Of a stretch of 64,000 bases of DNA, positions 41,242 through 45,361 are shown piece by piece. The notes beneath the pieces are model-generated. The model was not told where the DNA came from and did not search any database. It saw nothing but the letters and a program-made list of their open reading frames with translations. Location: assembly GCA_000517565.1 (NCBI GenBank), contig CP007051.1, positions 705,039-769,038 on the forward strand, given 5' to 3'. Position 1 is the stretch's first letter; every line of letters begins with the position of its first letter. The position numbers and the translations under genes were made by a program. Origin of the DNA: Desulfurella acetivorans A63. Lineage in GTDB: Bacteria > Campylobacterota_A > Desulfurellia > Desulfurellales > Desulfurellaceae.

Positions 41242-41954
41242 CTGGCTTTTTCAATAATTTGTTTCATTTGAATTATAGCTTCTTTCAAGCCACAAAAAAC
41301 AGCTCTTGAGATAATAGAATGACCTATATTTAATTCTTCAATTTCTTTGATTTTTGCAATCAGACTAACGTTTTGATAATTCAGGCCATGCCCTGCATGG
41401 ACGCAAAGCCCAAGACTTTTTGCAAAAATAGCTGCATCTTTAATTGTATTTGCGAATTGAAGTTTTTGAGATAGCGGTGCATTTGCATACTCACCTGTGT
41501 GAATTTCGATTGAATCTGCATTAAGCTTTTTTGCTGCTTCAATTTGTTTTTTATCTGGATCAATAAATAAACTTACAAGTATATTTTTTGAATGCAATTT
41601 ATCTATTACTTCTTTTAACTTTTCAAAGTTAGATATTACATCAAGACCACCTTCCGTTGTAAGTTCTTTTCTTTTTTCAGGCACAAGTGTTGATTGATAT
41701 GGGACAAGATTCAAAGCAAAATTTACTATTTTCTCTTCTATGCTCATTTCCAGGTTGAGTGGAATTTTGATTGTATTTTTAACCAATATACAATCATTTT
41801 CCTGGATATGGCGTCTATCTTCCCTTAGATGCATTGTAATATTATCAGCAAGGGCTTCTTGAGCAATTAAAGCTGCATAGATTGGCTCTGGTTCTATACC
41901 CAGTCTTGCCTGTCTTAGTGTTGCTATGTGATCAATGTTAACTCCAAGCCTCAT
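41229..41954 (-). CDS. pdxJ: Pyridoxine 5'-phosphate synthase
   Basis: A 241-residue TIM-barrel enzyme that condenses 1-deoxyxylulose-5-phosphate with 3-amino-2-oxopropyl phosphate. Motifs: LGVNIDHIATLRQARLG, the DNITMHLREDRRHI loop, VPEKRKELTTEGGLDV, VSLFIDP and VHAGHGLNYQNV. It implies the DXP-dependent route to vitamin B6. It overlaps the upstream kinase gene by 4 nt. Confidence 0.95.
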   Translation of the reverse strand: MRLGVNIDHIATLRQARLGIEPEPIYAALIAQEALADNITMHLREDRRHIQENDCILVKNTIKIPLNLEMSIEEKIVNFALNLVPYQSTLVPEKRKELTTEGGLDVISNFEKLKEVIDKLHSKNILVSLFIDPDKKQIEAAKKLNADSIEIHTGEYANAPLSQKLQFANTIKDAAIFAKSLGLCVHAGHGLNYQNVSLIAKIKEIEELNIGHSIISRAVFCGLKEAIIQMKQIIEKARWLA

Positions 41955-43411
41955 TTTTTAGCCTCCAAAATGGTTTTTAATACATAATTTAGACTATTTT
42001 CTTCGTTTGAGTGTATAATTATGGCATTTTCTGGCTTTTCAAATATTTCTTTTTGTTTAAAATATATATCAACTGTGCCATCTGAAATACTTTTTTCCTG
42101 TTGTCTTTTTTCAAGATTTTTGAATATTATTGGCTCCTCTGGATCAAGAAAAACAAAATGAGGCGTTATTCCAAGTTTTTCTATCGTATTTACCAAACTT
42201 TGTCTGTGTGAATGTTTTATGTAGGTTGCATCAAGTATAACATTAAAACCATCTTTTAAAGCTTCGTAAGCTAGCTGGCTTAATTTTTCATATACTACCT
42301 GTGTGTGATAGGTACTGTAAATGCCTTTTTCAAAACCGTTTGTATTTCCAGAAAATAACTGTTTTCTGACAAAGTCAGATGAAAAAACCTTTGCGTTGAG
42401 TTTTTGCGATAATCTTTCGCTAAAATAGCTTTTGCCACAGCCAGTCAAGCCAACCATTGCAATAAGTATCGGTTTATACTTTTTATCAATATATTTATAA
42501 GATAGGTCAAAATATTTGCTTGATAGTTCTTTTTTATTTTCAAAGTAATAAATTTTTCCCCTTACATAAGCCCTGTAAGTTTTATAAAAATTAAGTACTT
42601 CTTTTATAGAGTAATCATTTGAATATTCAATGTATCTTTGCAAAAAAAAATCAGATAAATTTTGTATGTTGTGAAATTCTAAATCCATAAGCAAAAAAGC
42701 TACATCACTTGCAACATCAGAGTATCTAAAACGGTCGTTGAATTCTATACAGTCGTATATGTAAATTTTATCGGCAAGGCAAATATTGTGGGAGTACAAA
42801 TCACCATGACAATCTTTAATTTTTTTTTCTACAATGCGTTTTTGCCAATCATACGTATCTAAAAAGTCATTTGTGTATTTTTTAATTGATTCAAACTGGT
42901 GTTTTGTTAAAAAAGTACCTTGTGCTTTGATTGTTTGGTTAAAATTTTCGTCTGTATTGATTTTTATGTTTTCTTTTTTGCCAAATTCACTTATTTGTGT
43001 ATTTGTTTGAGCATTTTTGTGAAAGTTTGCTATAATATTTGATAGTTTGTCTATATCTTCCAGTGTGACTTTATCTTTTTCAAGCAACACATCCATCATT
43101 TTATCTTGCGGAAGCTTTTTCATGGCAACTGCGTATTCTACAACTTCACCAGGACCTGATATAAAAAATTCATCTGCGTTTTTTGTAATTGACACAACAC
43201 CTAAGTATAAATCGGGTGAAAATCTGCTATTTAATTCAACTTCTTTTTCGCAATAGTATTTTCTTTTTTGCAGGCTTGTAAAATCTAGAAAACCAAAATT
43301 TACGCTTTTTTTTATTTTATAAACAATCTCATTTACTAAAACATACGATATGTGCGTTTCAATTAGCGTTGCTTTGAGCTTGTTTTTTAAGTTTTCTATT
43401 AATTGATTCAT
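41951..43411 (-). CDS. Two-domain aminoglycoside-phosphotransferase-like / P-loop kinase protein
   Basis: The start at 43411 (MNQLIENLKNKLK) gives 486 residues. The N-terminal two thirds are an APH-like kinase (COG2187 type): VNEIVYKIKKSVNFGFLDFT, catalytic KKIKDCHGDLYSHNICLADK and YIYDCIEFNDRFRYSDVASD. The C-terminal third is a P-loop kinase (AMVGLTGCGKSYFSERL, LDATYIKHSHRQ). The substrate is unknown; true antibiotic modification is unlikely. The gene begins inside the 3' end of rnhB-queH (53-nt overlap). Confidence 0.75.
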   Translation of the reverse strand: MNQLIENLKNKLKATLIETHISYVLVNEIVYKIKKSVNFGFLDFTSLQKRKYYCEKEVELNSRFSPDLYLGVVSITKNADEFFISGPGEVVEYAVAMKKLPQDKMMDVLLEKDKVTLEDIDKLSNIIANFHKNAQTNTQISEFGKKENIKINTDENFNQTIKAQGTFLTKHQFESIKKYTNDFLDTYDWQKRIVEKKIKDCHGDLYSHNICLADKIYIYDCIEFNDRFRYSDVASDVAFLLMDLEFHNIQNLSDFFLQRYIEYSNDYSIKEVLNFYKTYRAYVRGKIYYFENKKELSSKYFDLSYKYIDKKYKPILIAMVGLTGCGKSYFSERLSQKLNAKVFSSDFVRKQLFSGNTNGFEKGIYSTYHTQVVYEKLSQLAYEALKDGFNVILDATYIKHSHRQSLVNTIEKLGITPHFVFLDPEEPIIFKNLEKRQQEKSISDGTVDIYFKQKEIFEKPENAIIIHSNEENSLNYVLKTILEAKK

Positions 43412-44495
43412 GGTAAGAATATACACAACCGCAATAATTTTGTCTATAGAAATTGAATTCTTTAGAAAGCTCGCATGAGCGTTTAAAACCGTCTTTCTTT
43501 TTAAAATCTTCCTCAAAAAAACGCACATTTAGACTTTCGAGTGTTTTGCCAATATGTAGGATTGTATTATATTTTTTCAAAGGACTTACAGATAATGTGG
43601 TTGTAAAGTACTCAAAATTATGTTTTTTGGCAAAAACAGCAGTTTTGTACAATCTGTAAGCATAACATAGTGTGCACCTTTTAGAACCTTCTGGATAATT
43701 TTTATATAATTTTACTTTTTTAAACCATTCTTTGGGATCGTATTCTGGGACAATTAGCTCTAAATTGTGGTATTTGCAAAGCTCAATCATTTCTTTTAAT
43801 CTTAGCTGATATTCTTTTTTGGGCTGTATATTTGGGTTAAAAAAATATATGCTAAGTCTAAATTTTTCTTTTAAGCGCTCTATTACACTTGTCGCACACG
43901 GTGCACAACAGGCATGCAAAAGTAATTTTGGTTTAAATGTACCATTTATGAATTGTTTTATAGGCTCAAAACTTTTTCTGTGTATATCGCATATGCCAAA
44001 CTTTTCCAATAATTCGATATGCTTTTTTGTGCCATATCCTTTGTGTTGATCAAATGCATAATTTGGATATTTTTGAGACATAAGTATCATGTGGTGGTCT
44101 CGACTTACTTTTGCCAGAATAGATGCTGCTGATATGCAGGCTATTTTTGAGTCCCCATCTATGATACTTTTAAATTTGACCGGTAAATTTAAGTGATCTT
44201 TCCCATCTATCAATAATAAATCTGGCTTTTTGGGCATGAACAGGAGTGCTCTTTTTATTGATAACTCAAAGGCTTTTACAATGCCAAATCTATCTATTTC
44301 TTTGCAAGTAGCAATTCCAATGCCATATATTGAGTGTTTGGTAAGTATTTTATAAATTTCTTCACGTTTTTTTTGCGTTAAAACTTTTGAGTCTTTTACT
44401 ATTAGATTAAGCTTTTTTGGCAGAATGCAAACAGCGCTGACAATTGGTCCAGCCCATGGACCTCTTCCTGCTTCATCAACGCCCGCTATTAGCAT
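43359..44495 (-). CDS. Fusion of ribonuclease HII and epoxyqueuosine reductase QueH
   Basis: A 378-residue protein with two complete domains in one frame. Residues 1-185 are RNase HII: IAGVDEAGRGPWAGPIVSAV (D7, E8), LLIDGKD (D97) and IIDGDSKIACISAASILAKV. Residues about 188-365 are QueH (DUF208): LLLHACCAPCATSVIERL, FFNPNIQPKKEYQLRL, RCTLCYAYRLYKTA, TTTLSVSPLKKYNTI and YCGC. RNase HII removes ribonucleotides from DNA; QueH makes queuosine from epoxyqueuosine in tRNA with an iron-sulfur cluster. I know of no functional link between them. Confidence 0.9.
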   Translation of the reverse strand: MLIAGVDEAGRGPWAGPIVSAVCILPKKLNLIVKDSKVLTQKKREEIYKILTKHSIYGIGIATCKEIDRFGIVKAFELSIKRALLFMPKKPDLLLIDGKDHLNLPVKFKSIIDGDSKIACISAASILAKVSRDHHMILMSQKYPNYAFDQHKGYGTKKHIELLEKFGICDIHRKSFEPIKQFINGTFKPKLLLHACCAPCATSVIERLKEKFRLSIYFFNPNIQPKKEYQLRLKEMIELCKYHNLELIVPEYDPKEWFKKVKLYKNYPEGSKRCTLCYAYRLYKTAVFAKKHNFEYFTTTLSVSPLKKYNTILHIGKTLESLNVRFFEEDFKKKDGFKRSCELSKEFNFYRQNYCGCVYSYHESINRKLKKQAQSNAN

Positions 44496-45361
44496 AGAGA
44501 ACTTTTTTTGGCAAATATATGTGAGTATTTAGGTTTGTTAAGGTATTTTTCCACAACCGAACATTTTATTATAAACAAAAAAAACACCCTATCGTCGTCA
44601 AACTCTGAAAGTGTTTCAAAGTTGCCCTGCCCTTTTGATATAATAACATCAGCTTTTTTATAGATTTTTTTGCATAGATTATCACAGTAATCAGGCCAGA
44701 AACCAGGTGTTGGCTTTGTACTTTCAATTAGTGTTCCTATCTCTTCCAAACCCAAACCTTCAATGTCATTTTTGGTTACATCATTTATTATTGGTTTTCC
44801 TCGTAAGGCAATGTAGATATTTAAATTTGGATAAAGGTTTTTTATGGTTTGTAAAAGCAGTTTGTCAAAAACAATTTCTCCTGCATTATCTGCTAAAAAA
44901 AGCAATGTTTTAGCTTTGGTTATTTTTAATTTGAAATCTTCAATATCGTTAACCAAAAAACCTTCAATAATTGCCTTGTTAAGTGTTTCTTTTATGTTGA
45001 ATTTTTCTATTTGAGAGCCAAAATCAATTATATTTCCTGCAACAGAAATATTTATTGCGGCTTGCAATTTATCATCTGAGTCTTTAATGTAGCGTTTTAG
45101 ATCATCTACGTAGTTAAGCGCTATTTTATTGTATTTCTTTTTAATTTCACTGTATGGATCGTCATGGTCAAGTGTTTTTGTTATAGAGCCATACACAAAC
45201 TCTGATATTAAAGGTGGTGCTACATTATATTCAGTTTCAGATAATACTTTTGCTACATTTTTTAATGCCCTTATGGCATCATCGTCTTTTTTGCTGATGA
45301 TTTCTGTAGCTCTAATAGCTTGCGAAACAAAGCAAACAAAACACTCTGGTTTTACTTTCAC
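44489..45361 (-). CDS. DUF89/ARMT1-family protein (damage-control phosphatase-like)
   Basis: A 290-residue protein starting with GTG. The N-terminal CFVCFVSQAIRATEI has the CxxC of the bacterial/archaeal DUF89 subfamily. AGNIIDFGSQ, FLADNAGEIVFDKLL and VIISKGQGNFETL are the metal- and substrate-binding signatures of this fold. Characterised relatives are metal-dependent phosphatases acting on damaged sugar phosphates or cofactors. It overlaps rnhB-queH by 7 nt. A TATAAT ends 7 nt before the GTG. Confidence 0.82.
   Translation of the reverse strand: MKVKPECFVCFVSQAIRATEIISKKDDDAIRALKNVAKVLSETEYNVAPPLISEFVYGSITKTLDHDDPYSEIKKKYNKIALNYVDDLKRYIKDSDDKLQAAINISVAGNIIDFGSQIEKFNIKETLNKAIIEGFLVNDIEDFKLKITKAKTLLFLADNAGEIVFDKLLLQTIKNLYPNLNIYIALRGKPIINDVTKNDIEGLGLEEIGTLIESTKPTPGFWPDYCDNLCKKIYKKADVIISKGQGNFETLSEFDDDRVFFLFIIKCSVVEKYLNKPKYSHIFAKKSSLC

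Follow-up and report, generated by a model that had tools for sequence, protein, structure and literature searches.

The gene at the centre of this analysis encodes an RNase HII (RnhB) and a QueH in one polypeptide. The fusion is genuine and conserved across the Desulfurella/Hippea group. With a probability of roughly 0.8, we regard it as an ancient joining of rnhB and queH that has been kept as a bifunctional protein, the two halves of which most likely work independently of each other. The gene lies on the minus strand of the window, the 64,000-nucleotide stretch of Desulfurella acetivorans A63 DNA that was analysed (Table 1).

One frame, two complete domains

The initial annotation had described a single 378-codon frame holding a complete RNase HII followed by a complete QueH. 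The coordinates and length given there proved exact; the frame runs from an ATG start to a TGA stop, and both Pfam profiles are covered almost end to end, RNase_HII over profile positions 1–197 of 199 and QueH over positions 1–174 of 175 (211.7 bits). The E-values are so low that chance similarity is excluded for both domains. RNase HII equivalogs were matched in NCBIfam as well, one of them above cut-off (NF000595, 214 bits against a cut-off of 167). The NCBIfam result for the fusion protein is RNase HII alone, and the QueH half goes unreported.

Table 1. Features of the fused gene and its neighbours; positions refer to the window unless a locus is named
Feature	Position	Strand	Basis or remark
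rnhB-queH fusion gene, 378 aa	43359..44495	-	frame, translation, Pfam
RNase HII domain, residues 4-177 (D7, E8, D97, D115, Y154)	43965..44486	-	Pfam PF01351, E=2.2e-35; alignment
Junction, residues 178-190 (PIKQFINGTFKPK)	43926..43964	-	frame, AlphaFold model, alignment
QueH domain, residues 191-362 (C196, C197, C200, C274, C277, C355, C357)	43410..43925	-	Pfam PF02677, E=1.1e-62; alignment
ARMT1-like damage-control phosphatase gene, upstream; overlaps fusion start by 7 nt	44489..45361	-	conserved neighbour
APH-like/AAA_33 kinase gene, downstream	41951..43411	-	conserved neighbour; likely start inside fusion 3' end
tgt, directly after the fused gene in family f4	L056 376-1512	-	

The catalytic motifs previously noted in the N-terminal half (D7, E8, D97 and the AASILAKV block) are all in place, together with D115 and the substrate-sensing tyrosine Y154 of the YG motif. 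The cysteine motifs claimed for the C-terminal half are likewise present, with CC corresponding to C196-C197, CxxC to C274/C277 and CGC to C355/C357. In an alignment of 19 full-length homologues the five listed residues of the RNase HII half and all seven cysteines of the QueH half, C200 included, are invariant.

The PDB sequence matches of both halves are Thermotoga maritima proteins, namely RNase HII and QueH, respectively. With bacterial RNase HII (T. maritima 3o3g/2etj, E. coli 7uwe) the fusion shares the full domain, the catalytic carboxylates, the YG motif and the fold; in the fusion a QueH domain comes directly after the RNase HII C-terminus. Similarly, T. maritima QueH (7lc5/7lc7/9deu) has the full domain, the HxCC, CxxC and CGC motifs and the fold in common with it but lacks the N-terminal RNase HII domain. 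A further difference concerns Cys200 of the fusion (CCAPC), where T. maritima QueH apparently carries Asp13 (CCAPD), as judged from the name of the 9dco mutant and from CCAPD homologues. As this position varies within the QueH family and CCxPC is widespread in unfused QueH too, the missing aspartate is not treated as defining.

An AlphaFold model of the fusion (mean pLDDT 88, pTM 0.73) places the end of a helix at residue 184 and the beginning of the first QueH strand at residue 190. In Foldseek, the RNase HII half of the model matches 7uwe and 3o3g, and the QueH half matches 7lc5 (TMt 0.92, rmsd 1.4). The linker between the last RNase HII motif (HRxSFxP) and the QueH HxCC measures 13–16 residues across homologues, and its residues are variable and poorly conserved. 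The first in-frame ATG, GTG or TTG codon from the junction onward is the TTG of residue 193, which already belongs to the first QueH strand, and no internal start or ribosome-site-like sequence is conserved at the junction across the homologues. An independent internal start for QueH was rejected on this basis.

Conservation, sole copies and history in the phylum

The fusion locus was found in 22 of 25 phylum genomes, which represent four families. Nineteen of these loci are full-length, including those in the isolate genomes of Hippea maritima and D. amilsii, and every one is a single open frame; the encoded proteins are 47–97% identical. The remaining three loci end at contig ends (G011, G020 and G013, the last with its parts on the ends of two contigs), and the three genomes in which neither half was detected are incomplete assemblies (76–87%). 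Separate rnhB and queH genes were found in none of the 25 genomes. A TAA counted in one genome (G024) falls after the QueH domain and not at the junction. The split arrangement with a stop codon near residue 185, which the initial annotation had envisaged for sister genomes as the mark of a sequencing error, was thus not encountered, and the fusion persists throughout. That an error of sequencing or assembly deleted a stop codon between two genes is practically negligible as an explanation; nothing was found in its favour, and genomes assembled separately, isolates among them, show the single frame at all 19 full-length loci. A scan of the genome contigs with the whole protein returned matches to the RNase HII half only, and a plasmid search with the fusion gave no place covering 80% of the query.

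Searches for RNase HII and for QueH each returned one match per phylum genome, always the fusion gene (with QueH in G013 split over two contigs). QueA is encoded in 21 and Tgt in 22 of the 25 genomes; therefore, QueH activity is needed. As QueG was not detected above cut-off in any of the 25, no epoxyqueuosine reductase other than the QueH half is recognised in them.

Purifying selection acts on both halves. In a comparison of D. acetivorans with D. amilsii, dN/dS is about 0.07 for the RNase HII half (dN 0.095, dS 1.43) and about 0.06 for the QueH half (dN 0.087, dS 1.48), with dS near saturation in either case. These values bear on the idea that one half is degenerate and carried along as a passenger. 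RNase HI-like genes, present in 23 of the 25 genomes, could indeed take over some of the RNase H function; still, dN is far below dS in both halves, all listed motif residues are invariant, and neither a second QueH nor a QueG is available, so that a passenger half is very improbable. In a single genome, as far as checked, an RNase HI-like gene is located about 2 kb downstream of the fusion at L045 (G007:C14:72555-72923).

In a tree of the RNase HII halves, the fusion members form one clade with support of 100/100. The QueH tree recovered one clade of fusion halves in 24% of bootstrap trees, with the placement of the f4 member left unresolved, and a single clade is not rejected (p-AU 0.32). 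Judged from these trees, one fusion event would be the simplest reading, although there may have been two events, or the QueH half of family f4 may have been replaced.

The kinase gene downstream of the fusion had been described as overlapping it and as adding to an odd context. The overlap is real: in Desulfurella the kinase probably starts at an ATG at position 43411, about 53 nt before the end of the fusion gene. The context is not odd, the kinase gene being conserved beside the fusion in three of the four families. Pfam finds only the C-terminal AAA_33 in this protein, and its N-terminal APH-like assignment is from sequence inspection. The order ARMT1-like phosphatase, fusion, APH/AAA_33 kinase is shared by Desulfurella, most of the Hippea-like family and family f3, and in Desulfurella and the Hippea-like family the kinase is followed by pdxJ-acpS-folC. 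At one locus (L043), the fusion and kinase genes are separated by a 386-aa P-loop ORF. In family f4 (G024) the fusion instead comes after infB-rbfA-truB-padR, with tgt directly after it (infB, rbfA and truB were named from their sequences). This tgt linkage agrees with an active QueH half; RNase HII is not involved in it.

Independent or coupled halves

Based on domain content and motifs, the fusion is predicted to have both RNase HII and epoxyqueuosine reductase activity. We propose that rnhB and queH, presumably adjacent at the time, were joined once, in the ancestor from which the Desulfurella/Hippea phylum descends, and that the product is a two-domain protein with both functions. The N-terminal half would nick DNA 5' of embedded ribonucleotides as a step of ribonucleotide excision repair, and the C-terminal half would reduce epoxyqueuosine to queuosine in tRNA. 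The halves would act independently and be held together by shared translation, a fixed 1:1 dosage and the lack of a second copy of either. A later proteolytic cleavage of the chain into two proteins would leave no trace in the sequence.

Alternatively, the halves could be coupled such that one positions, regulates or recruits the other, e.g. with the RNase HII half aiding tRNA binding by QueH or a nucleic acid-bound complex linking both. Retention in four families, the short and nearly constant linker and the absence of any observed reversion are in favour of coupling, and this retention could hint at coupling over neutrality; the position of the f4 fusion directly before tgt points the same way. 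However, the linker residues are poorly conserved, and the QueH half by itself would lead one to expect the linkage to tgt. Moreover, unfused RNase HII and QueH elsewhere work alone, and their substrates, DNA with ribonucleotides and the tRNA anticodon, are not known to overlap biochemically. Coupling is consequently considered unlikely, and we infer that the halves are functionally uncoupled. It appears decidedly improbable that the removal of ribonucleotides from DNA and the synthesis of queuosine in tRNA are truly linked in function, for example through a shared nucleic-acid-bound complex or mutual iron/redox regulation. Of the two explanations offered earlier, joint action on nucleic-acid substrates is unsupported. 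The data agree better with the other, in which two enzymes that are otherwise independent are translated as one chain.

The architecture unites DNA repair and tRNA modification phylum-wide in what is apparently the sole gene for each. It can serve well as a lineage marker, and it allows a clean test of the functional meaning, if any, of a stable joining of unlinked enzymes. It also carries a warning for annotation, in that the RNase HII-only NCBIfam label would hide the queuosine step.

Occurrence beyond the phylum

In the searchable literature, which leaves subscription papers on QueH outside, no text names RNase HII together with QueH. The fusion thus seems to be undescribed, as had been supposed, and is apparently a new domain architecture built of two known families. 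A wider sample of 386 genomes, at least 186 of them with QueH, was inspected for most long QueH frames among the matches listed (all >280 codons, one of 262), and no RNase HII–QueH fusion outside the phylum was present in these frames; one locus with masked upstream sequence (G165) was left out of this verdict. The long QueH frames of other lineages are explained by extensions at the C-terminus, by spurious frames upstream or by masked sequence. Two of them, L060 and L061 (about 370 aa), carry QueH in a frame nearly as long as that of the fusion but differ in that their extra part of ~180 residues is C-terminal, whereas the RNase HII of the fusion is N-terminal. Together with L059, both are QueH homologues with CCxxD motifs.
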